From positions 21,648 through 56,537 of the forward strand of contig JAPLDG010000290.1 in NCBI GenBank assembly GCA_026391845.1: DNA of 34,890 nucleotides, written 5' to 3'. The notes under the pieces were generated by a model that saw only the letters and a program-made list of their open reading frames with translations, was not told the origin of the DNA and ran no database searches. The DNA is from Bacteroidota bacterium. Its GTDB lineage: Bacteria > Bacteroidota > Bacteroidia > Bacteroidales > FEN-979. This document shows, in pieces, positions 12,401 to 29,886 of the stretch. Each line of letters opens with the position of its first letter. The stretch's first letter is position 1. Position numbers and translations under genes: made by a program.

Positions 12401-13109
12401 TGTTTAACGATGCACAGCGGCTTCTCAGGGAGATAACAACCAGGAAAATGCTGATTGCCCGCGGGGTGGTGGGGCTTTATCCCTGCAATTCCGTTGGCGA
12501 CGATATTGACGTTTCCTTAGAAACCAGCAGCTCAAGGACCCTGGCCAGCCGAATCTTTGTCTGGCTGATTATATTGCACAAAAAGAATCGGGTTTCGTTG
12601 ATTATATCGGTGGATTTGCCGTAACAGCCGGATTGGGAGTCGAGGAATGGGTATCCATGTATGAACAAGAGCTTGATGATTACCATGCCATCCTGATCAA
12701 AATCCTCGCCGACAGGCTTGCAGAAGCCTTTGCTGAACTGATGCACGAGCGTGTCCGCAAGGAATTCTGGGGATATGCCAAAGAAGAGCAACTCGACGTA
12801 TTCTCCATGATCCGTGAAGAATATCAGGGCATCCGCCCGGCACCTGGCTATCCTGCCTGTCCGGAACATTCTGAAAAAAAGACGCTGTTCGACCTGCTTG
12901 ATGCCGAAAAAAGCGTGAACATCCAACTCACCGAAAATTATGCCATGTACCCGGGTGCCTCTGTGAGTGGCTTCTATTTTTCACACCCGCTTGCCCAATA
13001 TTTCAACCTTGGAAGGATCAGCAAAGACCAGCTGGCTGACTATGCGAAGCGGAAAAATTTCAGTATCGAAGAGACAGAAAAATTACTGAATACTAATCTG
13101 AATTATTAA
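9466..13109 (+). pseudogene. metH: Cobalamin-dependent methionine synthase, frameshifted
   Basis: MetH transfers a methyl group from 5-methyltetrahydrofolate to homocysteine through cobalamin. All domains can be followed: the homocysteine domain ([11 protein letters not shown]; zinc cysteines in GLNCSLG and [10 protein letters not shown]), the pterin domain ([19 protein letters not shown]), the cobalamin cap, the B12 domain ([12 protein letters not shown], with the axial His) and the AdoMet reactivation domain. The reading frame breaks at about 12514-12516. After SVGDDIDV the first frame runs into non-homologous sequence and stops at 12624. The correct continuation, [20 protein letters not shown], resumes in another frame at 12516 and runs to 13109, including RPAPGYPACPEH. 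About 15 residues normally found between these points are missing, so roughly 43 bases seem deleted, a length that is not a multiple of three. Either the gene is inactivated or the assembly is wrong here. Confidence 0.9.
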
Positions 13110-14883: not shown

Positions 14884-17043
14884 ATGTCCAGATTATCGAA
14901 TCTCCTCCTGGTCACCATTCTCCTTCCTTTCACAACATTTGCCCAATCAAGGTTGCTTACCGTGGAGGATGCCAGTTATATGAACCCAAAACTTAATGCG
15001 GCAACTCTGAGCCAACTCCGGTGGAGGACCGGAACCAATCAATTTGTATATGTGGCAAAAAACTGCCTCATTATCGGATCCAATGCCAACACCAGCCGGG
15101 ACACCCTCCTGCGTCTGACTGAAATCAACCTTCATCTGAAGAAAGATAAGCAGGATACCCTGAAACGGTTTCCTGCCATTACCTTTCTTTCACCGGTTCA
15201 ATATTATTTTACAAACGGAAATAAACTTTTCTCTGGTGACCTGACGAAGAACACGGTTACAGAAGAGAATTCATGGAACGAAAAGGGTGAAAACACGGAC
15301 ATAGAAAAGGCTGGAAAACTTGTTGCCTTCACTGTCAGCAACAACCTGTATATCTCTAAAAACGGGAAAGAGACAGCTATTACCAATGACTCCAACCGCG
15401 GCATTGTTTATGGCTCAGCCAGGGTACATCGCAACGAATTCGGCATAGAAAAAGGGACCTTCTGGTCACCGGATGGCCTGAACCTGGCATTCTACCGCAT
15501 GGACGAAAGCATGGTTGCCGATTATCCCCTGGTCGATATCACTCCACGGATTGCAACAGTCAATCCAACGAAATACCCGATGGCTGGCATGGTCAGCCAT
15601 CAGGTTACGGTGGGTGTTTATTCGATCAGCAGCGGAAAAATCACTTACCTTCAAACAGAATCACCCGCTGGCACGGATTCAGGATTACGCATAGAATACC
15701 TGACCAACATCACCTGGAGCCCTGATGGAAATCACATATACATAGCCACGCTGAACCGCGACCAGAACTTTATGCAGTTGAACAAATACAATGCAATCAC
15801 CGGCAAGTTCATCAAAACGCTGTTCGAAGAAAAAAATGACACCTATGTTGAGCCCATGCAAGGGCCGGAATTTCTGACAGGTAATCCCGGAAAATTCATC
15901 TGGGAAAGTCGTCGCGACGGATATAACCACCTGTATTTATATAATACTGAAGGATTGTTGATCAAACAGTTAACCCAAGGTCCGTGGGAGGTCACTGAGT
16001 TTTTGAAAACCGACCAGTCGGGAGCAACCGCGTATTTCAACTGCAATAAAGACAATCCGCTCGATCGTCAATTGTACTCCCTTGATCTGAAAAACGGCGA
16101 CCTCTCTCCGATCACGAGAATTCCGGGAATGCATACCACACAAATTTCTGTAGATGGAAAGTTCATCCTCGACAGCTATACCAGCGCTTCGGTTGCCCGG
16201 CAGGTTGAGCTGCTGGATTCAAAAGGAAACTGGTTGCAGACATTGCTTGCAAACGATAATCCCCTGAAAGATATTCAACTTGGCGAGACTTCCGTTTTCT
16301 TACTTAAGAATGAAGACAGCACCGATTTGTACTGCCGTTTGATCAAACCAGCCGGCTTTGACCCGGAAAAAAAATATCCGGTTATCGTTTATGTTTACGG
16401 AGGCCCGCACTCCCAGCTGATTTCCAACTCATGGCTTAGCGGTGCCGGGTTGTTTCTCAACTATCTGGCCGACAAGGGCTATATTGTTTTCACCATGGAT
16501 AATCGGGGAACATCATACCGGGGGCGCAGCTTCGAACAGGCCATTTTCCGCAACCTGGGAATGAAGGAGGTAAGCGACCAGATGATCGGCGTGAATTACC
16601 TCAAATCCCTGCCATTTGTCGATTCGGCGCGTATCGGTATCAATGGGTGGAGCTATGGCGGTTTTTTGACGGTTTCAATGTTTCTTAAACACCCCAATAC
16701 TTTTAAAGTCGCAGTTTGCGGAGGCCCGGTAATTGACTGGAAATATTATGAAGTGATGTATGGTGAACGATACATGGATACCCCTGAAACCAATCCTGAA
16801 GGTTATAAAAATGCCTGTTTACTCAATTATGTAAAAGACCTGAAAGGCAAACTGCTGATCATTCACGATGATCAGGATGGCACTGTTGTTCCCCAAAACT
16901 CACTAACCTTCCTGAAAAAGTGTGTGGATTCAGGCAAACAGGTTGACTTTTTCTTTTATCCCGGCCATGAACACAATGTTCGCGGGAAAGATCGGGTACA
17001 TCTGAACCAGAAGATGGTGCAATATTTTGAGGATTACCTGTAG
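14884..17043 (+). CDS. DPP-IV-type S9 serine peptidase, periplasmic
   Basis: A 719-residue prolyl dipeptidyl-peptidase-like protein. It has a signal peptide (MSRLSNLLLVTILLPFTTFA-QS), then a DPPIV N-terminal beta-propeller at about residues 90-440 (FWSPDGLNLAFYRMDES, ITWSPDGNHIYIATLNRDQN, WESRRDGYNHLYLY). An alpha/beta-hydrolase domain makes up the remainder. The catalytic triad is visible as Ser590 in GWSYGG, Asp665 in HDDQDGTVVP and His697 in GHEHNV. The family releases Xaa-Pro or Xaa-Ala dipeptides from peptide N-termini, and Bacteroidota use such enzymes in peptide feeding. No partner gene is nearby. Full length and apparently intact. Confidence 0.95.
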   Translation: MSRLSNLLLVTILLPFTTFAQSRLLTVEDASYMNPKLNAATLSQLRWRTGTNQFVYVAKNCLIIGSNANTSRDTLLRLTEINLHLKKDKQDTLKRFPAITFLSPVQYYFTNGNKLFSGDLTKNTVTEENSWNEKGENTDIEKAGKLVAFTVSNNLYISKNGKETAITNDSNRGIVYGSARVHRNEFGIEKGTFWSPDGLNLAFYRMDESMVADYPLVDITPRIATVNPTKYPMAGMVSHQVTVGVYSISSGKITYLQTESPAGTDSGLRIEYLTNITWSPDGNHIYIATLNRDQNFMQLNKYNAITGKFIKTLFEEKNDTYVEPMQGPEFLTGNPGKFIWESRRDGYNHLYLYNTEGLLIKQLTQGPWEVTEFLKTDQSGATAYFNCNKDNPLDRQLYSLDLKNGDLSPITRIPGMHTTQISVDGKFILDSYTSASVARQVELLDSKGNWLQTLLANDNPLKDIQLGETSVFLLKNEDSTDLYCRLIKPAGFDPEKKYPVIVYVYGGPHSQLISNSWLSGAGLFLNYLADKGYIVFTMDNRGTSYRGRSFEQAIFRNLGMKEVSDQMIGVNYLKSLPFVDSARIGINGWSYGGFLTVSMFLKHPNTFKVAVCGGPVIDWKYYEVMYGERYMDTPETNPEGYKNACLLNYVKDLKGKLLIIHDDQDGTVVPQNSLTFLKKCVDSGKQVDFFFYPGHEHNVRGKDRVHLNQKMVQYFEDYL

Positions 17044-17048
17044 GTTCA

Positions 17049-17084
17049 ATGCAAACAATGCAAGCAATGCAGGCAATGAAGTCC
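17049..17084. repeat. Tandem microrepeat, 9-nt unit (ATGCAAGCA)
   Basis: Units ATGCAAACA, ATGCAAGCA, ATGCAGGCA and a diverged ATGAAGTCC begin six bases after the peptidase stop. The unit is close to that of the array before metH. The flank and first unit, GGTTCAATGCAAACAA at 17043-17058, recur with one mismatch at 26909-26924, after the redox operon. Confidence 0.85.
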
Positions 17085-17162
17085 AAAAAGGCATTGTTGA
17101 TTGGAGAAATTCCGGCTAGCTCACAACGTATCTTATTGTTTTTGAGCACTTAACGTGTTTAT

Positions 17163-17195
17163 CGACAAAATTCCTGTGTTTGTCGGGTTTAAACC
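17163..17195. promoter_or_regulatory. Hairpin plus palindrome in the 324-base gap 17044-17367
   Basis: CGACAAA (17163-17169) pairs with TTTGTCG (17179-17185) across a nine-base loop, and is followed directly by the perfect palindrome GGTTTAAACC (17186-17195). This lies 40-75 bases upstream of the -7 box at 17238. No T-run follows, so it is not an obvious terminator. An operator is possible. Apart from this, the microrepeat and the promoter, nothing else was recognised in the gap. Confidence 0.35.
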
Positions 17196-17218
17196 GCTGC
17201 TTATCGACTTTCCTTTTA

Positions 17219-17245
17219 TTGAATCTAAATAAAATAGTAATTTTG
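17219..17245 (+). promoter_or_regulatory. Candidate promoter of the small repeat protein
   Basis: TAATTTTG at 17238-17245 matches TAnnTTTG. A TTG at 17219-17221 lies 16 bases upstream, slightly short of the usual spacing. The leader to the ATG at 17368 would be about 115 bases, long for this window and AT-rich. Confidence 0.45.
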
Positions 17246-17367
17246 CGACTCAATTTACTAATTATCAACCACTTATTATTCAAATATTACCAAACCAGCT
17301 ACTTGTAACATTGAAATTGATGCTGCGTCTCATGACCACAAAAACAAACAATTAAAAAATTATTGCA

Positions 17368-17706
17368 ATGAAAAACACTAAATTGACAACAATAAAAACC
17401 CTTTATATTCTTACTGCTTTTCTCGGGTTACAATTCAATACAATTTTTGCAGCTGCCAATCATATCGAAACACCGGCAGGATCGAATGAAACTACAATCA
17501 ACATCAGCTTGATAAGCCCTGTAGCACCGATAGTTGCAGATTTCAGCGATGGAGCTCCGGTGACCGAAATCAGCCTGATCAACCTGGCTCCAGCCACACC
17601 GAAAGAAGCCGATTTTGAAGATCAGCCAGTCGTAATCAATGCACCATCAATTTTGGATTTAGCTCCGGTTGCACCGGTAAAAGCCGACTTCGAAGATCAG
17701 GTTTAA
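17368..17706 (+). CDS. Small secreted protein with three LAP-x2-P-x2-ADFED repeats
   Basis: A 112-residue protein with a signal peptide (MKNTKLTTIKTLYILTAFLG..., cleavage near residue 29). The mature part consists of three imperfect repeats spaced 24-25 residues apart: LISPVAPIVADFSD, LINLAPATPKEADFED and ILDLAPVAPVKADFED. The protein ends two residues after the last repeat. The core is a hydrophobic Ile/Leu patch, Pro-x2-Pro, then an acidic ADFED. I do not recognise a characterised domain. Acidic, proline-spaced repeats suggest an extended envelope or surface peptide, or a substrate for processing. Its stop codon overlaps the stop of the convergent SRPBCC gene. Confidence 0.75.
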   Translation: MKNTKLTTIKTLYILTAFLGLQFNTIFAAANHIETPAGSNETTINISLISPVAPIVADFSDGAPVTEISLINLAPATPKEADFEDQPVVINAPSILDLAPVAPVKADFEDQV

Positions 17707-18086
17707 CCCTCCTTGTAAAATTCCCGAAGGGAACCAAAATAGCTGTTGTTCCATCCGTCGGCCATGTCATCATAATCTTCATCGGGAATATTGGTGTGCA
17801 ATAATTCCACAGAGGTTCCCATACCTTTGGGATGCAGCAGGATCGTGACAATTGAATCCTCGGGCTGATCGCCAAAATACCATTGCTGAACCAATTTCTT
17901 TCCGGGTTCAAATTCGATGTTGATCCCGGAGATGCTCCCATCCCATAAGGAAAATTCAGAACCGGGTACGGTTGACATTTCTGCGGGTTCGCCAGTCCAG
18001 AGCTGGAGTGTAACCGGGTTTGTGAGGGCGGTATATACATCCTCCGGCGGTGCGGGGATGGTATAGTATTTTCTAAAGTCTTTCAT
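17703..18086 (-). CDS. SRPBCC/AHSA1-domain protein
   Basis: A protein of about 127 residues with the START/Bet v1-like fold seen in activator-of-Hsp90 homologues: MKDFRKYYTIPAPPEDVYTALTNP, LQLWTGEPAEMSTVPGSEFS, then SISGINIEFEPGKKLVQQW and a C-terminal helix (MADGWNNSYFGSLREFY). Such single-domain proteins bind small hydrophobic ligands, and their cellular role is usually unknown. In-frame ATGs also occur at 18107 and 18092. The one at 18086 is preferred because the promoter elements at 18095-18123 would place the transcript start just before it, giving an almost leaderless mRNA. The gene is divergent from the redox operon that starts at 18195. Confidence 0.85.
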   Translation of the reverse strand: MKDFRKYYTIPAPPEDVYTALTNPVTLQLWTGEPAEMSTVPGSEFSLWDGSISGINIEFEPGKKLVQQWYFGDQPEDSIVTILLHPKGMGTSVELLHTNIPDEDYDDMADGWNNSYFGSLREFYKEG

Positions 18087-18094
18087 CTTCATGG

Positions 18095-18123
18095 CAAAGG
18101 TACACATGATTTGAAAAAAGCAA
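18095..18123 (-). promoter_or_regulatory. Promoter of the SRPBCC gene, both elements present
   Basis: On the minus strand, TTG (18121-18123) is followed after 18 bases by TACCTTTG (18095-18102). Both the sequences and the spacing fit the Bacteroidota TTG/TAnnTTTG consensus. This is the best promoter match in the window. It argues for translation from 18086, not from 18107. Confidence 0.6.
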
Positions 18124-18194: not shown

Positions 18195-19412
18195 ATGAAA
18201 AGAATCCCGATCTTGTTATGTTTGGTCAACTTCTGCATTTTCCATATCTATGCCCAGGAAACAGCGCAGTGGCGTGGACCTGAACGCGATGGCGTATACA
18301 ACGATACTGGTTTGTTGAAAAAATGGCCCGATGCCGGCCCTCTCCTCCTCTGGCATTTTGATGGTTTGGGTGAAGGACATGCATCAGCCGCTGTGACCGG
18401 CAACCGGATCTATACCGCCGGAATTACGGATGGCATAGGCTACCTTTACTGTTTTGATTTTTCCGGAAAAATGCTCTGGAAAGTCCCGTATGGTCAAGAG
18501 TGGACTGAAAGCTGGCCCGGCGTAAGAAGCACACCCCTGGTTCACAACGGTAAAATATATCAGCTGAGCGGATTCGGAAAGCTGGTATGCCGCAACGCTG
18601 AAAACGGGGACTTCATCTGGAGCGTGGATGTTCTGAAGGAATACCAGGGGCCCAACATCAAATGGGGCGTTACCGAGAACCTCCTTATTGACGGGAATAA
18701 ACTATTCTGCACAGTTGGAGGCGCCGAAAATAATGTGATCGCCCTGGACCCGGATACCGGAAAACTGATCTGGAAAAGCAGCGGAAAAGGTGAAGCAAGC
18801 GCTTACGGTTCACCCGCGCTGATAAAACTCGACAAAAAACATATTCTCGTAACACAAACCGCCAGTTCCATCCTGGGAATCGACACAGAAAACGGCAATC
18901 TGCTGTGGAGTCATGATCAGCCCAATAAATATTCTGTTCATGCCAATACTCCGCTGTTTCATGAAGGATTTCTATATTGTGTTTCCGGTTATGGAAAAGG
19001 AGGTGTGATGCTCAAGCTATCAGCCGATGGCAGCTCTGTTCAGGAAATGTGGCGAAACACGAACATTGACAACCGGATGGGAGGAGTTGTGCTTGTCAAC
19101 GGAAAAATTTTCGGATCGGATGATTCCGGCAAAGCCTGGTATTGTCTTGACTGGAAGACAGGAACTCCCATGTACTCTGAAAAGATAACAGGAAGAGGTA
19201 ATATCATCTACGCAGATGGCTTGCTTTATCTGTATGGTGAAAATGGGGAAATAGTCCTCGCTGAGCCCCTGATCAATTCATTTAAAAAGATCAGTTCATT
19301 TCAGGTCCCTTATGGCGCTGATCAGCATTGGGCGCACCTTGTTATCGGGCATGGCTATCTTTTTGTTCGCCACGGGAGCTCCCTGATGGTTTATGATATC
19401 CGGAAAAAATAG
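18195..19412 (+). CDS. Exported PQQ-like beta-propeller protein, paralogue A
   Basis: A 405-residue periplasmic or outer-membrane protein with a signal peptide (MKRIPILLCLVNFCIFHIYA-QE). The rest is one PQQ-like beta-propeller. It opens with the QWRGPERDGVYNDTGLL...W motif common to this propeller class, and repeated blades follow, such as NVIALDPDTGKLIWKSSGKG and SILGIDTENGNLLWSHDQ. The domain resembles BamB and quinoprotein dehydrogenases, but I cannot identify PQQ or calcium ligands, so cofactor binding is unproven. Frames open upstream to a TTG at 18111 and an ATG at 18186, but the ATG at 18195 gives the cleanest signal peptide and fits the promoter. It is the first gene of a six-gene operon and is paralogous to the next. 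Confidence 0.9.
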   Translation: MKRIPILLCLVNFCIFHIYAQETAQWRGPERDGVYNDTGLLKKWPDAGPLLLWHFDGLGEGHASAAVTGNRIYTAGITDGIGYLYCFDFSGKMLWKVPYGQEWTESWPGVRSTPLVHNGKIYQLSGFGKLVCRNAENGDFIWSVDVLKEYQGPNIKWGVTENLLIDGNKLFCTVGGAENNVIALDPDTGKLIWKSSGKGEASAYGSPALIKLDKKHILVTQTASSILGIDTENGNLLWSHDQPNKYSVHANTPLFHEGFLYCVSGYGKGGVMLKLSADGSSVQEMWRNTNIDNRMGGVVLVNGKIFGSDDSGKAWYCLDWKTGTPMYSEKITGRGNIIYADGLLYLYGENGEIVLAEPLINSFKKISSFQVPYGADQHWAHLVIGHGYLFVRHGSSLMVYDIRKK

Positions 19413-19446
19413 TTTCAGTTTACACGCAACACCAAAGAACATTTGT

Positions 19447-20688
19447 ATGAGAAAACGCTTGTTTCTGCTTTTCTGCCCCATCATTCTTTCTCTTTCAGGG
19501 TATGTTCAAACGACAGCTCAATGGCGCGGTCCTGAACGAAATGGTTTTTACCCCGAAACAAATCTGTTAAAATCCTGGCCAGCCGATGGTCCGACCCTGC
19601 TCTGGAAAACTGAACTCATCGGCAATGGCTACGGCTCCCCGACGATTACTGCCGACCGGATCTATATCACCGGAGAGATTGATACTACCGGTTATCTTTT
19701 TGCATTTACACATCAGGGGAATTTGATTTGGAAATCAGCATACGGGAAGGAATGGGTAGTCAATTATCAGGGTTCGCGATGCGCCCCGACCGTGGTTGGC
19801 GATTTAATCTATGTTTGTTCCGGCCTGGGTGATCTTTCTTGTTTTGACGCTGGCACCGGGGCGAAAAAATGGACCGTTGACATGATCCACGATCTGCACG
19901 GACGATTCACTCTTTTCGGACCTGCAGAATCAGCGCTGATTGACGGCGAGATGGTTTTTCTCGTCCCTGGCGGCAAAGATACCAATGTAGTGGCCATGAA
20001 CAGATTTACCGGTAACATTCTATGGGTATGCAAAGGTCAGGGCGAAATTCCAGGTTATAATGCTCCCTATCTGATAAGACTGGCCGACCGCCATGTGCTG
20101 GTAACCTTCACGGCCTATTCCCTTCTGGGTATTGATGCACTTACCGGAGAGTTGCTCTGGGTTCATCCCCAGGATAACATTCCGGTGTCCGAGCGAAAAC
20201 TTGGCAACGGCGACACACACAGCAACACCATCCTGTATGAAAACGGTTTCATCTATTATTTTGCGGGAGACGGCAATGGCGCTGTGAAACTTTCATTGTC
20301 GGCAAACGGCAAGGAAATCCGGCAAGTTTGGCGAAATCAATCCATTGACAACTACATGGGAGGTTTCGTAAAGCTGGGAAACAGTCTTTATTCTTGCGTT
20401 TCAGAGAAGAAACAACTGAAATGTATTGACTCCGGAACAGGCCTTGTAACAGATTCACTGAAATGCGGAACAGGTTCAATCATTTTGGCCGACAGCATGC
20501 TCTATTACTATAACCAAAAAGGAGAAGTCAAACTGATTCAACCAGGCCCTGGAAAAATGGCACAGAAAGGTTCCTTCAGGATGACCGCCGGAACCAAAGA
20601 ACATTTTTCACATCCGGTCGTTTACAGGGGCGTATTATATGTGCGCCATGGAATTGCATTGATGGCATACGATATAGGTAAAAAGTGA
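19447..20688 (+). CDS. Exported PQQ-like beta-propeller protein, paralogue B
   Basis: A 413-residue tandem paralogue of the preceding protein. It has a signal peptide (MRKRLFLLFCPIILSLSGYV), the entry motif AQWRGPERNGFYPETNLL, and blades such as LLGIDALTGELLWVHPQD. The C-terminus VLYVRHGIALMAYDIGKK parallels YLFVRHGSSLMVYDIRKK of paralogue A. The duplication is old, because the two differ at many positions throughout. The ATG at 19447 is preferred over an upstream in-frame start at 19393, which overlaps the previous gene and would bury the signal peptide. The stop overlaps the GTG start of the next gene by four bases, so translational coupling is likely. Confidence 0.9.
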   Translation: MRKRLFLLFCPIILSLSGYVQTTAQWRGPERNGFYPETNLLKSWPADGPTLLWKTELIGNGYGSPTITADRIYITGEIDTTGYLFAFTHQGNLIWKSAYGKEWVVNYQGSRCAPTVVGDLIYVCSGLGDLSCFDAGTGAKKWTVDMIHDLHGRFTLFGPAESALIDGEMVFLVPGGKDTNVVAMNRFTGNILWVCKGQGEIPGYNAPYLIRLADRHVLVTFTAYSLLGIDALTGELLWVHPQDNIPVSERKLGNGDTHSNTILYENGFIYYFAGDGNGAVKLSLSANGKEIRQVWRNQSIDNYMGGFVKLGNSLYSCVSEKKQLKCIDSGTGLVTDSLKCGTGSIILADSMLYYYNQKGEVKLIQPGPGKMAQKGSFRMTAGTKEHFSHPVVYRGVLYVRHGIALMAYDIGKK

Positions 20689-22100
20689 AAAGATTGCCTC
20701 TTCTGATTTTCATCTTTTCAGCCATTGCATTTGTTGTATGGTGGTTTCTTCATGATCCTGTGAAAAACTTTACACTTTCGGTTCCTGGAATGGATAACAG
20801 AAAAAAAGGGTCAGCAGTTTCCGGAAAACCGGTTACAATTGGTTCTGAATATAAATTTTTTCAGGCATCTCAAGATTTTCCCGGTACCCGATGGACACGA
20901 TTCAGAGGGCAGGACTTTGACAACATCAATAAAGAACCGACCCGGCTGATCGAAAAATGGGGTAAAACCGGACCACATATTCTCTGGAAAAAATCGCTGG
21001 GCGAGGGGCATGCCGCACCGGCCGTTTATGACGGAAAAATATATTTGCTGGATTACGATGAAACCGGAAAAGCGGATCAACTGTGTTGCTTTTTACTGGC
21101 CGACGGGAAAGAACTCTGGCGGCGGGGATACAGGGTACATCTCAAACGCAACCACGGGTTGTCGAGGACCGTTCCTGCCGTAAATGAAAAATTTGTCATC
21201 ACCATCGGGCCAAAATGTCAGGTAATGTGTGTCAGTCGCCAAAACGGTGATTTTCTCTGGGGTCTTGATCTTGAAAAGGAATACAACACGGAAATTCCGT
21301 TCTGGTACACCGGACAATGCCCGCTGCTTGACAACGACACGGCCATCATTGCCACAGGGGGAAAGTCACTTTTGATCGCCGTGGATTGCAACACCGGGAA
21401 GAAACTATGGGAAACCCCCAATCCGAAAGGATGGAAAATGTCGCACTCCTCCATCATGCCCATGACGATCCATGGAAAAAAAATGTATGTTTACTTCGCC
21501 ATTGGAGGGGTTTGTGCCATTGCTGCATCCGGGGCTGACAGGGGCAGGGTTTTGTGGGAAACAACCGGCTTTGCACCATCTGTTGTGGCGCCATCCCCGG
21601 TAATACTGACAGATGGCAGGATTTTTCTGACTGCGGGGTATGGTGCAGGATCGGCGCTTCTGCAAATAATACCAGATGCAGAAAAATATCAGGTGAAGAT
21701 TCTTCAGAAGTATAAACCACAGGAAGGGCTTGCCTCTGAGCAACAAACACCCATCTTTTTTAATGGATACCTGTATGGCATTCTTCCAAAAGATGCGGGA
21801 GATTTAAGAAACCAGTTTGTTTGCTACCGTATGGACAATTGTAAAAAAGCGGTCATGAGCAGCGGAAAAACCGTCCGCTTCGGATTGGGCCCTTACATTC
21901 TGGCCGACGGAAAATTCTTTATTCTGAACGACGACGGAGAGATGACCATCGCTAAAATGTCACCGGCAGGATTCAACGTTCTCGATAAAGCCAGGATTAT
22001 TGACGGGCAGGATTCCTGGGGACCCGTGGCCATCACCGGTGGATATCTGTTGATGCGGGATTCAAAACAAATGGTATGCATGGATATAAAAGCGCCATAA
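20685..22100 (+). CDS. Membrane-anchored PQQ-like beta-propeller protein
   Basis: A 471-residue protein with a GTG start overlapping the previous stop. An N-terminal hydrophobic segment (LPLLIFIFSAIAFVVWWFL) reads as an uncleaved membrane anchor. A linker of about 40 residues leads to a PQQ-like propeller that opens with WTRFRGQDFDNINKEPTRLI...W, the diverged counterpart of the WRGP motif of the two exported paralogues. Blades include LLIAVDCNTGKKLWETPNPK. A vicinal cysteine pair (LCCFLLADGKELW) is present. Quinoprotein dehydrogenases carry a vicinal disulfide near the cofactor, but here the pair lies in a blade strand, so I do not use it as evidence for PQQ. The propeller domain should face the periplasm. 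Confidence 0.87.
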   Translation: MKRLPLLIFIFSAIAFVVWWFLHDPVKNFTLSVPGMDNRKKGSAVSGKPVTIGSEYKFFQASQDFPGTRWTRFRGQDFDNINKEPTRLIEKWGKTGPHILWKKSLGEGHAAPAVYDGKIYLLDYDETGKADQLCCFLLADGKELWRRGYRVHLKRNHGLSRTVPAVNEKFVITIGPKCQVMCVSRQNGDFLWGLDLEKEYNTEIPFWYTGQCPLLDNDTAIIATGGKSLLIAVDCNTGKKLWETPNPKGWKMSHSSIMPMTIHGKKMYVYFAIGGVCAIAASGADRGRVLWETTGFAPSVVAPSPVILTDGRIFLTAGYGAGSALLQIIPDAEKYQVKILQKYKPQEGLASEQQTPIFFNGYLYGILPKDAGDLRNQFVCYRMDNCKKAVMSSGKTVRFGLGPYILADGKFFILNDDGEMTIAKMSPAGFNVLDKARIIDGQDSWGPVAITGGYLLMRDSKQMVCMDIKAP

Positions 22101-22101
22101 C

Positions 22102-23082
22102 ATGAAACGTAAAATTGTCCTTCTTGGATCGCTGGCTCTTTTGCTGACCGTGATTTTATTGATGGCCAGGGATCTCTTTTTCACCAACCCCGATCGTACG
22201 GCTAATCCTTATAAGTATGATATCACCTCATTCAAGTCGGGCGATACAGCCAGGATCATGTATGCCGAAGTTCAACATTTCAATCCGGAATTATCAGCCA
22301 TTCACGGAATTGCTGTTGACAAATCCGATCGCATATACATCTGCGGTGAAAATGGTGTCGAAATACTCGATAATAATGGCAACCGGAAATGTAAATTCTC
22401 CATCGGGGGAACCGCCAATTGCGTTTATGTGGATGCCACTGGTCAAATTTATTTAGGAATGCAGGATCATCTTGAAATTTACAACACGGCGGGAGGTCTG
22501 CTGAAACAATGGAAATCCTGCGGGCGCGATGCAATCATTACTTCTGTTGCGGTAACCGACAAGGCTGTTTTTATTGCCGATGCCGGGAATAAGGTAGTGT
22601 ATCAATATGATCTGTCGGGGAACTTTGAAAAAAAAATAGGTGAAAAAGATCCGGTAAAGAAAATTCCGGGATTTGTGGTGCCCAGCCCCTATTTTGATCT
22701 CGGAATTGGCCATGACGGGGAACTCTGGGTTGTAAATCCCGGCCGGCATCGGTTTGAGCAGTATAATCAGGAGGGAAATCTGACCTCTTCCTGGGGAGAA
22801 TCAACCATGACCATGGAAGGGTTTTGCGGATGTTGCAACCCATCCAACTTTGCCATGTTGTCGGATGGATCATTTGTTACCAGTGAAAAAGGGATAGAGC
22901 GCATCAAGGTTTACGGCCCCGGAGGCATCTTCAGAAATGTGGTGGCCGGACCTGATTCATTTATTGAAGGAACCCGTGGAATTGATCTTGCCGTGGATGC
23001 GCAAGACCGGATTCTGGCACTCGATCCGGAGAAAAAACAGATCAGGGTTTTTACATTAAAAACAGTGCAGAAGAACGAATGA
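22102..23082 (+). CDS. Membrane-anchored NHL-type beta-propeller protein
   Basis: A 326-residue protein with an N-terminal membrane segment (IVLLGSLALLLTVILLMA) and a six-bladed NHL/SMP-30-like propeller facing the periplasm. Blade signatures include IHGIAVDKSDRIYICGENGVEI, TSVAVTDKAVFIADAGNKVV and GIDLAVDAQDRILALDPE. A compact cysteine motif, GFCGCCNPSNFA, lies about 60% into the protein and could bind a metal or cluster or form disulfides. It is the one feature not expected of a plain NHL protein. The start lies one base after the previous stop. The membrane anchor and the polyferredoxin gene directly downstream suggest a docking or redox-partner role, which is inference. Confidence 0.87.
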   Translation: MKRKIVLLGSLALLLTVILLMARDLFFTNPDRTANPYKYDITSFKSGDTARIMYAEVQHFNPELSAIHGIAVDKSDRIYICGENGVEILDNNGNRKCKFSIGGTANCVYVDATGQIYLGMQDHLEIYNTAGGLLKQWKSCGRDAIITSVAVTDKAVFIADAGNKVVYQYDLSGNFEKKIGEKDPVKKIPGFVVPSPYFDLGIGHDGELWVVNPGRHRFEQYNQEGNLTSSWGESTMTMEGFCGCCNPSNFAMLSDGSFVTSEKGIERIKVYGPGGIFRNVVAGPDSFIEGTRGIDLAVDAQDRILALDPEKKQIRVFTLKTVQKNE

Positions 23083-23095
23083 GGCGGGATCGCTT

Positions 23096-25045
23096 ATGCA
23101 AAACAGAAGGCAATTTTTAAACATGTTGGTCAGGGGTGGCATTTTTGCTTCATTCACCTTGTTGGGCGGGATTTTAATCCGCCGGTGGCGTGAACCGGGT
23201 GGCTGTGGCAAAAACGTTGCATGCGACAAATGCAAGGAATCTGATCAATGCCGGTTACCTGATGCCAACAAGCACCGCAGCGAAAAAGCCAGGTCTCCCA
23301 TCACCATGGTGTGGCAGCTTGATCCTGCAAAATGCATACAATGTGGCCGCTGTGCCACCAATTGTGTATTAACTCCTTCGGCTGTCAAATGTGTTCATGT
23401 GTATGCCATGTGCGGTTATTGCGATTTGTGCGGCGGGTATTTCAAGCCTGAAACCAAAACACTGAATACCGCTGCCGAAAACCAGCTATGCCCGACAAAT
23501 GCCATCAAAAGAAAGTTTGTTGAGGATCCGTTCTTTGAATACACCATCGATGAACCCCTTTGCATTGGATGTGGTAAATGCGTAAAAGGATGTTCCTCTT
23601 TTGGCAATGGTTCGCTTCAGTTGCAGGTGAGACATGATATCTGCGAAAATTGCAACCAGTGTGCCATTGCCCGGAACTGTCCTTCAGATGCATTCAGCCG
23701 GGTACCGGCAACCGAGCCGTATCTGCTCAGGCAGATTGCCGAAGTGAAACAAACCGTCAACGCGAAACATCTGATATTCATCTTTTTAATGATCGCCTTC
23801 TCTTTCCAGTTTCTAGATGTATTTGGTGTACAACGCTTTCCAAGACCGGAGTTTGAAACAGGCTATGTGCAGCCTGAAACGCTGCAACCTTCTGCCCGGG
23901 CGGAAATCCTGGCGGTGATGGATGTGGCTATTCTTTTGGTATCCTTGTCTGTGGTAACCTGGCTGGTGTTGAAAAAAAGATCACGCTTCGGAGTTTTCCT
24001 TGCATCCCTCTTTTCCCTTGCCTATTTCGGATTCTATCGCCAAGGCTGCATCTGCTCCATCGGTGCCATCCAAAATATCACGCTGGCAATCTTCGACAGT
24101 TCTTATATTATACCATTGACAGCCATCGCATTTTTTTTACTCCCGCTGGTTTTTACCCTTTTCTTCGGCCGTACCTTTTGTGCAGCGGTGTGTCCATTCG
24201 GTGCGATCCAGGATTTGGTATCTTTCAGGCCTCAGAAACTCGGGACACGCCTGAATGCTGTTTTGGGACTTATCCCTTTTATTTACCTTGGATTGGCGAT
24301 CCTGTACGCCGCGACAGGAACCGACTTTATCATTTGCCGTTACGATCCGTTTGTCGGCATCTTCAGATTTAACGCATCTTTTGGAATGTTTATTTTCGCA
24401 GGTACCCTGCTGATTTCCGGAATTTTTATCGCACGGCCCTATTGCCGGTTTCTTTGTCCGTATGGTGTGCTGCTGAACTGGATCAGCCGGTTTTCGTGGA
24501 AACATCTCACCATCACTCCTTCCAGATGTATCCAATGCCGGTTGTGTGAAGATTCCTGTCCCTATGATGCCATAAATATTCCTCTTACCGATAAAAATCC
24601 GGAAAAGAGATCGGCAACCATCCGGAAACTGATCCTGATATGTTTTCTGGTCCCGTTTTTCACGGTATTGGGTGGCTGGACAGGATCACAAGTGCATGAA
24701 ACACTGGCAGGAGTCAATGGAAAAGTCAGGCTTGCCAAAGCGCTGCTTGATCCCGGTAAAATCAGCGACCAGCCTGAAAACATTGAAGTTACTGCTTTCA
24801 AATCATCCGGAAAACCAGTTTCGCTCGTATATTCAGAGGCTACGCTGGTACTGAAACAATTTTATGACGGTGGCTGGATTCTTGGTTGTTTCCTCGGACT
24901 TGTCTTCGGAATCACGCTTGTTTCCCTGATGATTTCAACATTCAGAACGGATTACACGCCAAATAAGGGCAGTTGCTTCAGCTGCGCCAGGTGCGTAGAT
25001 TTTTGCCCGGTTCAAAAAAACGATGAATTATTAAAAACATCATGA
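23096..25045 (+). CDS. NapG/NapH-like membrane polyferredoxin fusion
   Basis: A 649-residue iron-sulfur membrane protein. A Tat-like start (NRRQFL, residues 3-8) and hydrophobic segment precede a periplasmic Cys-rich domain: C37/43/46/52, CIQCGRCATNC (80-90), MCGYCDLCGG (106-112), CIGCGKCVKGC (156-166) and CENCNQCAIARNC (183-195). This resembles NapG-type 4Fe-4S proteins. A membrane domain (about 225-465) follows, with the NapH/NosR hallmark pairs CAAVCPFGA (362-366) and CRFLCPYGV (450-454). Then come a 4Fe-4S site CIQCRLCEDSCP (478-488), further helices and a last site CFSCARCVDFCP (627-637). No FMN-binding NosR domain is seen. Such proteins pass electrons between quinol and periplasmic or cytoplasmic partners. 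It sits between propeller genes and overlaps the next by four bases. Confidence 0.9.
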   Translation: MQNRRQFLNMLVRGGIFASFTLLGGILIRRWREPGGCGKNVACDKCKESDQCRLPDANKHRSEKARSPITMVWQLDPAKCIQCGRCATNCVLTPSAVKCVHVYAMCGYCDLCGGYFKPETKTLNTAAENQLCPTNAIKRKFVEDPFFEYTIDEPLCIGCGKCVKGCSSFGNGSLQLQVRHDICENCNQCAIARNCPSDAFSRVPATEPYLLRQIAEVKQTVNAKHLIFIFLMIAFSFQFLDVFGVQRFPRPEFETGYVQPETLQPSARAEILAVMDVAILLVSLSVVTWLVLKKRSRFGVFLASLFSLAYFGFYRQGCICSIGAIQNITLAIFDSSYIIPLTAIAFFLLPLVFTLFFGRTFCAAVCPFGAIQDLVSFRPQKLGTRLNAVLGLIPFIYLGLAILYAATGTDFIICRYDPFVGIFRFNASFGMFIFAGTLLISGIFIARPYCRFLCPYGVLLNWISRFSWKHLTITPSRCIQCRLCEDSCPYDAINIPLTDKNPEKRSATIRKLILICFLVPFFTVLGGWTGSQVHETLAGVNGKVRLAKALLDPGKISDQPENIEVTAFKSSGKPVSLVYSEATLVLKQFYDGGWILGCFLGLVFGITLVSLMISTFRTDYTPNKGSCFSCARCVDFCPVQKNDELLKTS

Positions 25046-26859
25046 CAGCTCAAAATTCACTGGTCCCGATTCATCTGTTGCGGAAAATTGCCCTTGCCAG
25101 TGCAATTTTCGCGATCATCCTCAGTGTCCTGATCGTTGTCAATTACATGCAGTTAAAACGCGCCGATCCGCTGAATACAAAGGTTTTAAAAACCCTGGTA
25201 GAACGGATGCATGCCAATCCTGCCGATGAGCAACTCCGCCAGGAAATACGGGAGGTTGATCTCCTTGCCCGCAAAGCATTCTTTACCACTCAATGGCAGG
25301 TACGAATGGGTGGTTACCTGCTTTTTTTCAGTATTCTGGTCGTAGTCATTTGTTTAAAAACCATTGAACTCCGGGAGAAATCACTGCCGGTTGTTCCATC
25401 TCAGGAAAAAACCGACATCTGGAACATCCGCAAAATCAACAGCATCTGGATTTTATATTCCGGTATTACTGTCGTGTTCATTTCGCTTCTTCTGGCCTTC
25501 CTCACCCACCAGGAACTTGGCAACACCCTTGATCTGGCGTCAAAAGCCATCAGCTATAAACACGATCCTTCAGGATCGGGGCCTTCAGGATCGGGGGTTG
25601 AAACCGACAAGAACGCAATACCAGAAAAGCTGGGTTCTGATTCTATCGGGAAACATGACACGATGGCAGGAACTGCAGGCCTTAATATGGATGGTTTTCC
25701 TTCAGCCCAGGAGATAGCAAAAAACTTCCCCTCCTTCAGGGGTCCCGGAGGGAATGGAATTGCATACCAGAAAAATATTCCGACAGATTGGGACGGTAAA
25801 AGTGGTAAGAACATCCAATGGAAAACTGAGATCCCTCTTCCGGGTTACAATTCTCCCATTATCTGGAATGACAGAATATTTCTCACCGGCGCCAATGAGA
25901 CCAAAAGAGCGGTTTACTGCATCGACCTCGCTTCAGGTAAAATCCTTTGGCGGAAGTCGGTAGAAAAAATCCAGGGGAGTCCGGCACAAGAACCAAAAAT
26001 CATCCGGGAAACCGGGTTTAGCGCGCCAACCATGACCACAGATGGCCGCCGGGTTTATGCCATTTTTGCCAACGGAGATCTGATTTCGCTCGATTTTGAC
26101 GGGAACCAGGTCTGGGCAAAAAATCTGGGCTTGCCGCTAAATCATTACGGGCACTCCTCTTCTCTGATCATGTATCACGATCTGTTGATCATCCAGTATG
26201 ATCAGCGAGGCTCCGGAAGTGTCATGGCGCTTTCGGGGAAAACCGGTGAGAAAGTGTGGCAAACAAGCCGTAGCGTGAAGGTTTCCTGGGCTTCGCCGGT
26301 GCTTGTTCAAACCGGAAAAAGAACCGAGTTGATTCTCGCAGCTGAACCCATCATCGCTTCCTACAATCCTGCAGATGGTAAGGAGTTGTGGAGGATGGAC
26401 TGCATTTCCGGTGAGGTTGGCCCGAGTGTGGCCTATGCTGGCGGTGTGGTTTACGCTGTGAATGATTATTCCAGACTTTCGGCCATTGAGATCGGGGATC
26501 AGCCAAAATTGTTGTGGGAGGAGTCAGATTTTCTCTCAGACATTCCCAGTCCCCTGGCCACTGAAAAATATCTGTTCCTGGTAACCAGTTACGGGACCAT
26601 TGTTTGTTATGATGCAAAAAATGGAACCAGTTATTGGGAGCATGAGTTGGAAACCCCGACTTTTGCCTCGCCAATGCTGGCAGAAGGAAGAATCTACCTG
26701 CTTGATAAAAAAGGCATCATGCACATCATTAAACCAGATCAGAATTATCGGGTTATCAACGAATCTCCGCTTGGTGAAGGTTCTTCCTGTACACCAGCTT
26801 TTGCCGAGGGGAGGATTATCATCCGCGGGGATAAAAATTTGTTCTGCATCGGGAAATAA
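25042..26859 (+). CDS. PQQ-like beta-propeller on three transmembrane helices
   Basis: A 605-residue protein overlapping the polyferredoxin gene by ATGA. Three hydrophobic helices (about residues 15-34, 88-106 and 134-155) are followed by a low-complexity linker with a duplicated PSGSG (176-186), then a PQQ-like propeller from about 225 to the end. It opens with SFRGPGGNGIAY, the same entry motif as the other propellers of the operon. Blades include AVYCIDLASGKILWRKSVEK and SVMALSGKTGEKVWQTSRS. With three helices and a cytoplasmic N-terminus, the propeller would face the periplasm. It closes the operon. The helices could form an interface with the polyferredoxin, but this is inference. Confidence 0.88.
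   Translation: MTAQNSLVPIHLLRKIALASAIFAIILSVLIVVNYMQLKRADPLNTKVLKTLVERMHANPADEQLRQEIREVDLLARKAFFTTQWQVRMGGYLLFFSILVVVICLKTIELREKSLPVVPSQEKTDIWNIRKINSIWILYSGITVVFISLLLAFLTHQELGNTLDLASKAISYKHDPSGSGPSGSGVETDKNAIPEKLGSDSIGKHDTMAGTAGLNMDGFPSAQEIAKNFPSFRGPGGNGIAYQKNIPTDWDGKSGKNIQWKTEIPLPGYNSPIIWNDRIFLTGANETKRAVYCIDLASGKILWRKSVEKIQGSPAQEPKIIRETGFSAPTMTTDGRRVYAIFANGDLISLDFDGNQVWAKNLGLPLNHYGHSSSLIMYHDLLIIQYDQRGSGSVMALSGKTGEKVWQTSRSVKVSWASPVLVQTGKRTELILAAEPIIASYNPADGKELWRMDCISGEVGPSVAYAGGVVYAVNDYSRLSAIEIGDQPKLLWEESDFLSDIPSPLATEKYLFLVTSYGTIVCYDAKNGTSYWEHELETPTFASPMLAEGRIYLLDKKGIMHIIKPDQNYRVINESPLGEGSSCTPAFAEGRIIIRGDKNLFCIGK
25567..25596 (+). repeat. Exact 15-bp tandem duplication in the linker
   Basis: CCTTCAGGATCGGGG occurs twice in a row, coding for PSGSG-PSGSG in the linker between the helices and the propeller. 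The copies are identical, so the duplication is recent. Being a multiple of three it only lengthens the flexible linker. Confidence 0.9.
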
Positions 26860-26994: not shown

Positions 26995-29886
26995 ATGGTT
27001 CTTAGAATATTCAACTTTTTCGGTGTTTTAATCTTGGTTTTATGGGCGAGCAATTCGATTGCCCAGCGGTTTGGTTTACCTGGAATTCATAACTTCAGCC
27101 GTTCGGAGTACAAGGGTGGCACCCAGAACTGGGCTGTTGCCCAGGCAAGCAATGGCATGATTTACTTTGGCAATAACAACGGCCTTGTTGAGTATGATGG
27201 AGTTCACTGGACTGTTTACAGCGATCTGGAACTGGTGATACGGTCGCTTTGTGTTGACGATAAACGTATTTACGTCGGAGCATTTAACAAATTCGGTTAT
27301 TACCAGGAGAATGTGAATGGAATGCTCGAATACCATTCTTTGCTCCCTTTACTTAAAAACCGCATCCATGATTTTGACGAAATCTGGCGGATTCATAAAA
27401 CCAGCTTTGGTATTGTATTCCAGTCTTTCAGAGCCATGTTTATTTACCAGGATGGGAAAATTGAGATCATTTACCCAAAATCGAAGTTTCACTTCTCCTA
27501 TTACGTAAACGGAATCCTATGGGTATATGACGAAGAGGAAGGATTAATGCAATGCCGGGAAGGCAAGATGCGCAATATTCCGGATGGATCTCTCTTTGCC
27601 GGCACTCCTGTCTGGACCATTCTTCCCTTAAATGCCGACCAGGTTGTTATTGGAACTGCAAAAAACGGAATGTTCAGATACGATGGGAATAAATTCACCA
27701 GGTGGGACAAACCGATCAATGCACTGCTTAAGAAATATCAGTTGTTTTCCGGTGCTTTAATCGACGGAAAATATTTTGCTTTTGGCACCATTCAACACGG
27801 GCTGATCATTTCCGATACTGCCGGGCAAATTGTATTTGAGATTAACAAGGAGCGCGGGCTTTCAAACAATACGGTATTAAGCATCGAAAATGATCAGGAA
27901 GGTAACATATGGTTGGGTTTGGATAATGGGATATCGGTGGTAGATTTTTATTCTCCGCTCACTTTTCTTCAGAACTATTTCAATATTGGCTCGGGCTATG
28001 CTTCGGCCATTTTCGGAGAGTACCTTTATCTTGGAACCAATCAGGGCCTTTTTTATATCCGATGGGATGATTTCATCAATCCGCTGAAGAAAAAAGATGA
28101 TTTTCATTTGGTTGAAGGTACTGAGGGGCAGGTCTGGAGCCTTACCATTATTGACCAAACGCTGCTATGTGGTCATAACGCAGGAGTATATCAGGTATTT
28201 GATAAAACGGCTGTGAAAATATCTTCCATTCCCGGTGGGTGGAATATAATCAAGGTTGACAGCAAACAATCCCTCCTGCTGGTTGGAACCTATGCCGGGT
28301 TGTCTGTTTTGGAGCGCAAAGGCCCCCTGTGGGTTTACAGAAACAGCTTATCAGGGTATGATCAGTCTTCACACTACCTTGAACAGGACCCGAAAGGATT
28401 TATTTGGATTAGCCACGGATATAAAGGTCTTTTTCGGATAAAACCCGATGCGGATTTTCGGCATGTGAGCGAGATTCGGTTTTATAACAGCAAAAACGGG
28501 TTGCCTTCAGATCAGAGCAATACACTTTTTAAACTGAAATCAGGAATAGCAGTAGGAACCAGAAACGGTATTTTCAGATACAGTGAAACGAATGATAAAT
28601 TTGAACCTGATTTACAATTGAACGCGCTTTTTCCCGATTCAAAACAAATTGAATATCTGACTCAGGACAGTTCCAACAACATCTGGTATTATAACCATCA
28701 ACAACCTGGTGTATTGCGTTTTCAGGAAGATGGCACCTATTCAAATATTACTGCACCTTTTGTTGAACTTACAAGGATGGTAATTCCAGCCTTCGGACAC
28801 ATCAATGCACTGAATTCCAGCTCCGTAATTATTGGCATAGAAGGTGGTTTCGCCCATTACATTTCGAAACAGTTTAAGCAGAACAACTTATTACCAGTTG
28901 TTTATATCAGCAAATTACAATCCGGGGATACGGCGGAAGGGACTTTTCGCTATAGCAGCAATGAACTCAGACAGGAGGTTGTCCCCACGTTCAGGTATGC
29001 CAGCAGCACGATAGCCATCGCGTTTGCAGCCAGCCAGTTTTCGGAACAAGGATTATTATTTCAGTTTAAACTGGATGGTTTTGATGCAGATTGGTCGGCA
29101 TGGTCTCTGCGAAATAACAAAGAGTACACAAATTTGCCGGCCGGATCTTACACCTTCAGACTTAAAGCCCTCACCATTCAGGGAAAAACAACACCCATCC
29201 TCAGTTATAAGTTTATTATTCTGCCACCCTGGTACCAGTCGGTTTATGCCTGGATCGCTTACGCTGTGTCAGCCATTTTCCTTTTGTATCTTGCATATCG
29301 CTTCTTCCTGAAAAGCATGGAAAAATCTCGTTTCAGAGAAAAGGAAGCCCAGAAAGAAAAGTACCGGCAACGTGAACAAAAATTACATGAGGAAGCCCTT
29401 GTAACAGAAAAGGAAATAATCAGCCTGCGCAATGAGAAGCTTAATCTTGAAATGATCCATAAAGAAAAAGAACTCGCCAACTCTACCATGTTAATTATTC
29501 AAAAGAATGAAATCCTGCAGCGATTAAGAAACGAACTCACCAAGATAAAGAATGCGCTTGCTGATGAACATTTGAAAAATAATCTGCATGCTACCATTAA
29601 ACGGATTGGTAAAGAAATTGACAATGAAAAGCAATGGCAGGTGTTCAATATGCATGTGGAACAGGTACACGAAGAACTGTTGAAAAAACTGAAAACGCAT
29701 TGTCCCGATCTTACTCCACGGGAACTCAGCCTTTGCGCCTACCTCAGGATGAATATCTCCAGCAAGGAGATCGCAACGCTCATGAATATAAGTGCACGTG
29801 GCGTAGAAATCAGCCGCTACCGGATACGAAAAAAACTCAGGTTGAACCGTGAGGCTAACCTGACAGACTTCATGATCAACCTTTAA
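26995..29886 (+). CDS. Transmembrane one-component regulator: Reg_prop propeller, triple-tyrosine domain, LuxR-type HTH
   Basis: A 963-residue protein with a signal peptide (residues 1-23), a large periplasmic Reg_prop propeller (about 30-640) with blades such as SNNTVLSIENDQEGNIWLGL, and a Y_Y_Y domain (about 668-745; FKLDGFDADWSAWS, YTNLPAGSYTFRLKA). One helix (about 750-772) and a long charged coiled coil (about 775-880) follow. The C-terminal LuxR-like HTH starts near 906 (LTPRELSLCAYLRMNISSKEIATLMNISARGVEISRYRIRKKL). No histidine kinase or receiver domain is present, so it is not a hybrid two-component protein. In Bacteroidota, related sensors read periplasmic oligosaccharides or other ligands. 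It starts 135 bases after the redox operon on the same strand. The target genes are unknown: either that operon or the secreted-protein and carbohydrate genes downstream. Confidence 0.92.
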   Translation: MVLRIFNFFGVLILVLWASNSIAQRFGLPGIHNFSRSEYKGGTQNWAVAQASNGMIYFGNNNGLVEYDGVHWTVYSDLELVIRSLCVDDKRIYVGAFNKFGYYQENVNGMLEYHSLLPLLKNRIHDFDEIWRIHKTSFGIVFQSFRAMFIYQDGKIEIIYPKSKFHFSYYVNGILWVYDEEEGLMQCREGKMRNIPDGSLFAGTPVWTILPLNADQVVIGTAKNGMFRYDGNKFTRWDKPINALLKKYQLFSGALIDGKYFAFGTIQHGLIISDTAGQIVFEINKERGLSNNTVLSIENDQEGNIWLGLDNGISVVDFYSPLTFLQNYFNIGSGYASAIFGEYLYLGTNQGLFYIRWDDFINPLKKKDDFHLVEGTEGQVWSLTIIDQTLLCGHNAGVYQVFDKTAVKISSIPGGWNIIKVDSKQSLLLVGTYAGLSVLERKGPLWVYRNSLSGYDQSSHYLEQDPKGFIWISHGYKGLFRIKPDADFRHVSEIRFYNSKNGLPSDQSNTLFKLKSGIAVGTRNGIFRYSETNDKFEPDLQLNALFPDSKQIEYLTQDSSNNIWYYNHQQPGVLRFQEDGTYSNITAPFVELTRMVIPAFGHINALNSSSVIIGIEGGFAHYISKQFKQNNLLPVVYISKLQSGDTAEGTFRYSSNELRQEVVPTFRYASSTIAIAFAASQFSEQGLLFQFKLDGFDADWSAWSLRNNKEYTNLPAGSYTFRLKALTIQGKTTPILSYKFIILPPWYQSVYAWIAYAVSAIFLLYLAYRFFLKSMEKSRFREKEAQKEKYRQREQKLHEEALVTEKEIISLRNEKLNLEMIHKEKELANSTMLIIQKNEILQRLRNELTKIKNALADEHLKNNLHATIKRIGKEIDNEKQWQVFNMHVEQVHEELLKKLKTHCPDLTPRELSLCAYLRMNISSKEIATLMNISARGVEISRYRIRKKLRLNREANLTDFMINL

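Follow-up and report, generated by a model that had tools for sequence, protein, structure and literature searches.

We analyzed a 34,890-nucleotide stretch of a Bacteroidota bacterium (GTDB lineage Bacteria; Bacteroidota; Bacteroidia; Bacteroidales; FEN-979), positions 21,648 to 56,537 of contig JAPLDG010000290.1 in assembly GCA_026391845.1, which we refer to as the window. It contains an operon for propeller proteins (pA, pB, pC, pD and an NHL propeller) and an iron-sulfur protein with NapG-like and NapH-like parts. All six open reading frames (ORFs) are on the plus strand and span positions 18195-26859, with inter-gene junctions of +34, -4, +1, +13 and -4 bases. The ORF list and Pfam confirmed the tightly joined, unidirectional six-ORF operon of the preliminary description, which had been made from the sequence alone. 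The features are:

18195..19412, + strand: pA, PQQ_2 (BamB-like) propeller, predicted to be exported, 405 amino acids (ORF; PQQ_2, 96.3 bits)
19447..20688, + strand: pB, second PQQ_2 propeller, predicted to be exported, 413 amino acids (ORF; PQQ_2, 79.5 bits)
20685..22100, + strand: pC, transmembrane-anchored eight-bladed propeller, candidate substrate-binding subunit (PQQ_2, 74.9 bits; conservation; model)
22102..23082, + strand: NHL propeller with one N-terminal transmembrane segment (NHL, 31.5 bits)
22828..22842, + strand: residues 243-247 of the NHL propeller, Gly-Cys-Cys-Asn-Pro, with vicinal cysteines (conservation, model)
23096..25045, + strand: iron-sulfur protein, whole ORF (several Fer4 families in Pfam)
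23096..23290, + strand: its N-terminal part, an RR/hydrophobic segment and a 4-Cys motif, equivalent to a small separate protein of relatives
23309..23710, + strand: its NapG-like domain, 16 Cys in four groups, with four [4Fe-4S] clusters expected (alignment)
23759..25045, + strand: its NapH/NosR-like membrane domain, with CxC and CX3CP motifs and two C-terminal 4-Cys groups (conservation)
25042..26859, + strand: pD, three transmembrane segments followed by a PQQ_2 propeller, 605 amino acids (PQQ_2, 107.7 bits; hydropathy)

The Pfam cut-offs are 27.6 bits for PQQ_2 and 20 bits for NHL, and an alternative start of pA is possible at 18111. Transmembrane and export assignments rest on simple hydropathy, which gave no segment above threshold for pA, a single signal-like N-terminal segment for pB, one N-terminal transmembrane segment each for pC and the NHL propeller, and three ahead of the propeller in pD. 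The iron-sulfur protein, with 38 cysteines, has one N-terminal hydrophobic segment and seven more.

Relatives of the operon were collected in two ways. A scan of genome contigs yielded a first set of 26 loci, comprising 23 relatives and three chance matches in Vibrio; the 23 relatives are all metagenome-assembled genomes, titled Bacteroidales, Bacteroidetes, Bacteroidota, Bacteroidia or, in one case, Draconibacterium orientale. A NapG profile search of 393 genomes of the window's order (E <= 1e-30) matched 70 genomes in 47 of the 207 genera, three of the 70 scoring below 120 bits. Regions around 60 of these matches, together with the window and the 23 relatives, gave 84 loci, all with NapG, and 83 after removal of one duplicate. 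Left out of the counts, for which all reading frames were used, were L025-L027 (the Vibrio loci, chance ferredoxin matches), L001 (part of the window) and L109 (its NapG DNA equals that of L020). A locus was considered testable for a gene if it held enough DNA on the relevant side.

Across the 83 loci, all from one Bacteroidota order, the usual gene order is pA-type propellers, pC, NHL propeller, small 4-Cys protein, NapG-like protein, NapH-like protein and pD, followed by a BfuC-BfuB fusion (BfuCB), a BfuA-like gene, a fifth propeller (pE), a GT4 glycosyltransferase and a LolD/FtsX-like transporter. Among testable loci, the upstream side holds the NHL propeller in 74/77, pC in 61/67 and at least one pA-type propeller in 54/62 (0 to 6 copies per locus, most often 1-3), and the downstream side holds NapH in 79/80, pD in 67/72, BfuCB in 58/64, BfuA in 48/55 and pE in 12/14. 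The complete seven-part order was kept in 38 of the 47 loci with enough flanking DNA. Since the six-gene arrangement recurs in 83 distinct loci, it is not due to chance, and the operon is one half of a larger conserved locus. The co-occurrence of propellers and polyferredoxin expected from the preliminary description was therefore borne out, with conserved order, and its idea that the genes form one periplasm-facing redox system gains support from the conserved gene content and order. Conservation across the phylum was rejected, as the NapG profile matched 0/394 other genomes in the phylum sample; a comparable earlier search with a single protein matched only the window's own genome among 395. 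Searches against plasmids returned 103 records for the iron-sulfur protein, none covering 80% of the query and those listed matching the NosR/NapH-like part, and four distant records for pA.

The NapG-like domain shows the architecture of its family, an RR segment with four 4-Cys groups, and all 16 cysteines are invariant in 13 aligned sequences. The NapH/NosR-like domain likewise has the transmembrane segments, CX3CP motifs and two C-terminal 4-Cys groups of NapH, and 15 of its cysteines are 100% conserved in 76 sequences. The fusion of NapG-like and NapH-like parts that had been described is present in the window, but it includes the small 4-Cys module (Cys 37, 43, 46, 52) as a third part, and in most relatives these parts are two or three separate genes; the fusion is lineage-specific. 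By motif search over the 83 loci, the small module is a separate ORF in 43 and part of a fusion in 15; it was not found in 24, and one locus was untestable. The separate ORF encodes about 60-87 amino acids with the RR, the hydrophobic segment and the 4-Cys motif, lies between the NHL and NapG genes (for example L004, 10001-10234) and is easily missed in annotation. An ordinary Nap or Nos system was set aside because the profile scores are far under the cut-offs (NCBIfam NapH, 42.9 bits versus 213.05; NosR, 35.9 bits versus 1000). No NapA or NapB was found among the conserved neighbors run through Pfam; the genomes themselves were not searched for them.

The gene following pD in relatives encodes a NuoE-NuoF-ferredoxin fusion, that is BfuC-BfuB, and the BfuA-like gene next to it carries 2Fe-2S, Fer4_20, flavin adenine dinucleotide (FAD) and Nqo3-ferredoxin domains. 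Further downstream, pE and the glycosyltransferase precede the two transporter genes, one for a LolD-like ATPase and the other for an FtsX-like permease. The window's own genome has the BfuCB fusion at the end of contig C249, which truncates it, and the remainder of the second half at the start of contig C1. The suggestion that a protein encoded elsewhere might take part was thus supported: a Bfu-type module, predicted to be cytosolic, adjoins the operon in relatives and lies on other contigs in this genome.

According to PMC9304861, the Bfu family is defined by a BfuBC core, and a set of His and Cys residues marks bifurcating BfuB. In the BfuCB homolog of L015, PF01257, PF01512, PF10589 and Fer4 score above cut-off and SLBB just below (25.6 vs 27). 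Judged by its domains, with the 2Fe-2S domain of BfuC and the flavin mononucleotide (FMN)/NADH, NADH_4Fe-4S, SLBB and ferredoxin domains of BfuB, the fusion is a Bfu-family protein; its best solved relatives are the Bfu-type enzymes 9bov, 9n5u, 8oh5 and 7t2r. His714 and Cys592, 627, 719 and 724 are present in 100% of 61 sequences, and the same letters align in 9bov, 9n5u and 8oh5. These columns probably represent the B2-cluster marks of a bifurcating BfuB, although the match to the A. mobile numbering of PMC9304861 is our inference.

In the alignment of the BfuA-like subunit from the window's genome with 9bov chain A, only residues 4-301 and 465-674 of the latter are covered; 302-464 are skipped, and so is a similar stretch of 8oh5 chain C. 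In StnC (PMC10482914), residues 102-565 form the GltD-like part, in which FAD and NADPH are bound by two Rossmann folds. The skipped stretch would correspond to the NADPH domain. The FAD motif is also absent in 8/59 BfuA homologs. Because of these two absences, we consider NADP unlikely as a partner, and the subunit seems to act as a wire. A Stn-like NADP transhydrogenase was accordingly dropped as a candidate, the NADPH-binding stretch being missing. The BfuA-like subunits of L021, L022, L090, L094 and L103-L106, which lack the FAD motif, are about 320-370 amino acids long.

To relate the two halves across genomes, we compared 69 NapG-positive genomes (66 strong and three weak matches, own genome excluded) with 80 NapG-negative ones, namely the negatives from G395 to G488, about one per family and not a random draw. 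At least 90% completeness and at most 5% contamination apply to 55/69 of the positive and 69/80 of the negative genomes. The fusion was counted as an uninterrupted match with E <= 1e-200; some matches are cut by contig ends, and weaker fragments are missed in either group. An uninterrupted BfuCB fusion was found in 61/69 NapG-positive and 0/80 NapG-negative genomes (Fisher's exact test, 2e-33, uncorrected for the relatedness of the species). Six of the 80 negatives contain another homolog of 46-49% identity with stops inside the match, also present in eight positive genomes, which we read as probably two separate genes.

On the periplasmic side, the Gly-Cys-Cys-Asn-Pro motif of the NHL propeller is found in 100% of 71 sequences with a mean pairwise identity of 40%, and in the structure model (predicted local distance difference test, pLDDT, 86.6; predicted template modeling score, pTM, 0.80) both cysteines are located in the loop preceding strand 246-252. 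Polar residues conserved in at least 95% of sequences number 45 in pC (65 sequences), eight in pA (58), 21 in pD (75), 14 in pE (46) and 12 in the NHL propeller (71), where pC is somewhat more conserved overall (mean identity 54% vs 40-49% for the others). The near-invariant residues of pC include H157, R161, Q211 and H254. In the pC model (pLDDT 87.7, pTM 0.83), 22 of the 42 polar conserved propeller residues precede an inner strand by at most 12 positions, and seven of the eight blades contribute to them; the strand starts were taken from DSSP of the model and the pocket geometry from secondary structure, and as the windows (+9..+20 and the 12-residue loop) were chosen after looking, the P values (5e-4, 3e-4) are descriptive. 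This clustering before the inner strands suggests a pocket on one face of the modeled pC, which is the likeliest candidate for a substrate-binding propeller. The best fold matches of pC are BamB and tetrathionate hydrolase (query-normalized TM about 0.5-0.6, 13-19% identity among the matches listed), and the latter means that an eight-bladed BamB-type fold can carry an enzyme that does not use PQQ. Of the earlier alternatives for the substrate site, on the propellers or elsewhere, a protein elsewhere does exist in the BfuABC-type module; the substrate site itself is unproven. No cytochrome or molybdoenzyme was recognized among the conserved genes run through Pfam.

From the gene content and order, the co-occurrence, the cofactor motifs, the missing NADPH-domain stretch and the predicted transmembrane and export segments, all of which the sequences show, we infer one complex, an electron route and its direction. 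We propose, with slightly more confidence than doubt, that the operon supplies one half, in the membrane and periplasm, of a transmembrane electron-transfer system and the Bfu-family module the other, cytosolic and NADH-linked half. The cytosolic half would be formed by the BfuC-BfuB fusion, with FMN, NAD(H) and ferredoxin sites, and the BfuA-like iron-sulfur subunit. BfuCB and then BfuA would relay electrons from NADH, and from reduced ferredoxin, to the [4Fe-4S] domain that the NapH-like protein has on the cytoplasmic side. Crossing the membrane, the electrons would reach the NapG-like protein, which has four clusters and the small 4-Cys protein as its partner. From there they could go to the NHL propeller, whose vicinal cysteines are invariant, to the pC pocket or to both, and on to an extracytoplasmic partner; the remaining propellers would help in docking, act as scaffold or bind the substrate. 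Outward electron flow is likelier, as NADH and ferredoxin are both strongly reducing. More tentatively, and with doubt prevailing, the whole may be a transmembrane bifurcating or confurcating Bfu complex whose third partner lies outside the membrane, so that NADH and ferredoxin together drive a periplasmic reduction, or the reverse, and the propeller array rather than a cytochrome or molybdoenzyme handles the substrate, possibly an envelope lipid or terpenoid.

Several observations weigh against this NADH-linked system, in addition to the missing kinship correction above. Eight of the 69 NapG-positive genomes lack an uninterrupted fusion; three of them have weak NapG matches, and among the others are copies that are split or fragmentary. 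In the window and in L006 the Bfu genes and pE are not beside the operon, and four further testable loci have no adjoining BfuCB. Five genomes other than the window's have no BfuCB at the NapG locus: in four of them (that of L006, G537, G478 and G633) a long intact match lies elsewhere, and in G653 there are pieces. Mirror-tree analysis showed correlated divergence (rho 0.83-0.92), which had no background control and would be expected from plain vertical inheritance too. NapH-like proteins are known to couple to quinol and are not known to couple to NADH.

The NapGH-like pair could accordingly be a menaquinol dehydrogenase feeding the propellers as NapGH and NosR do, with BfuABC separate and merely co-regulated. 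This agrees with the NapG and NapH architecture, with the sub-threshold matches to the NapH and NosR models and with the location of the two halves on different contigs in the window's genome. We consider it rather unlikely, since the BfuCB fusion tracks NapG and the BfuA-like subunit, without an NADPH stretch of its own, has no other evident partner. The preliminary description had referred to the exchange of electrons with quinol by NapGH- and NosR-type proteins; the electron source of this system need not be quinol. A true PQQ (pyrroloquinoline quinone) dehydrogenase system, in which the propellers oxidize an alcohol or sugar and electrons pass inward, would fit the PQQ_2 and weak PQQ-family matches, a weak profile similarity between pC and quinoprotein ethanol dehydrogenases (E 0.0016) and a sorbose dehydrogenase at rank 47 of its fold matches. 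We set it aside as very improbable because the scores for TIGR03075 (pA 41.6, pB 31.9, pC 17 and pD 40.4 bits) are far under the cut-off of 480 bits. PQQ is also far too oxidizing for the reduction of NAD+. A search for PqqC gave a hit in 0/32 genomes, but as the 14 control genomes were equally silent, this carries no weight. Scaffolds for outer-membrane protein assembly, merely sharing the operon with redox genes, are similarly improbable: pC has BamB as its best fold match and the BamB model TIGR03300 matches the four propellers at 40-83 bits, but all remain under its cut-off of 285 bits, none of the partners BamA, C, D or E turned up among the conserved neighbors, and the order with the NapGH and Bfu genes is tightly kept.

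A further explanation, compatible with the NADH-linked system and naming its substrate, is that the system reduces or modifies an envelope lipid, glycan or terpenoid, with GT4 and LolD/FtsX in the same pathway. GT4 follows pE in 9/11 and LolD is present in 4/4 testable loci; these genes are perhaps mere neighbors, and GT4 is absent after pE in L103 and L105. Additionally, we found a recurrent operon that encodes a squalene-hopene-cyclase-like protein bearing a DADD motif, a fusion of DUF116 and polyprenyl synthetase, a radical SAM protein, a 4Fe-4S protein and a toroid protein (loci L141-L145, L146, L147, L149 and L151). The operon or parts of it occur beside pA genes in L070, L103, L105, L141, L149 and L152 (genomes G417, G529, G596, G648, G726 and G556), directly adjoining them in five genomes and one gene away in L070. 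The cyclase is found in 15/393 genomes, 13 of them NapG-positive against a base rate of 70/393 (5e-9, relatedness uncorrected). Of its two NapG-negative carriers, G556 carries cyclase-pA-pA2-pC on a short contig that gave no NapG match, and G558 has the operon without such neighbors in the stretch read. Because 57/70 NapG-positive genomes, including the window's, show no such cyclase, the terpenoid operon is a lead to the substrate and not the answer, and we regard this explanation, too, as improbable on balance. The literature searched for the operon turned up only unrelated papers.

Directly 3' of the operon, at 26995-29886, the window contains a Reg_prop/Y_Y_Y/LuxR-type helix-turn-helix regulator, of which no relative was found among the neighbors of the 23 first-set loci. 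Upstream, at 14884-18107, are genes for a 719-amino-acid protein and a small unknown protein and an antisense AHSA1 gene, a block common only to six sister loci (L002-L004, L006-L008). At 9466-13109, metH appears interrupted: the ORFs 9466-12624 and 12633-13109 lie in different frames and each hold part of the B12-dependent methionine synthase activation domain, which may reflect an assembly error.

'PQQ-binding-like beta-propeller' proteins are commonly annotated without function, and the locus gives them a context. If the proposal is true, these anaerobe-type Bacteroidota link their pools of NADH and ferredoxin in the cytosol with a reaction that takes place outside the membrane. In the literature searched, whose coverage excludes preprints and most subscription journals, we found no description of the linked system, and the preliminary label "undescribed" stands in that no paper naming it was found there. 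The accessible main text of PMC9304861 has no mention of PQQ, NapH, propeller, periplasm or polyferredoxin, nor does the accessible part of PMC11406978 mention any of these or NHL. The parts belong to known families; the linked whole is apparently new. PMC9304861 left 17 BfuB clades without assigned function, and the locus names partners that such a clade could have, which makes the question testable.

Among known systems, the closest to the cytosolic half are the Bfu (HydBC-type) enzymes, above all Nfn-Bfu/Stn (StnABC; 8oh5, 9bov, 9n5u), which share the BfuC and BfuB domains with the His/Cys columns and a BfuA-like subunit with 2Fe-2S, Fer4_20, usually FAD, and Nqo3-type ferredoxin parts. In contrast to them, BfuC and BfuB are fused here, the genes sit with NapGH-like and propeller genes, and BfuA lacks the 302-464 stretch of 9bov chain A and the C-terminal part past 674. 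With NapG/NapH and NosR the system shares the 16-Cys NapG-like domain and the NapH-like membrane domain, whereas its neighbors are propellers, Bfu subunits and the small 4-Cys protein, and the family scores are far below the cut-offs. BamB and tetrathionate hydrolase, both eight-bladed BamB-type propellers, share their fold with the pC model; pC differs from them in its predicted transmembrane anchor, its own near-invariant polar residues and its place in a redox operon.

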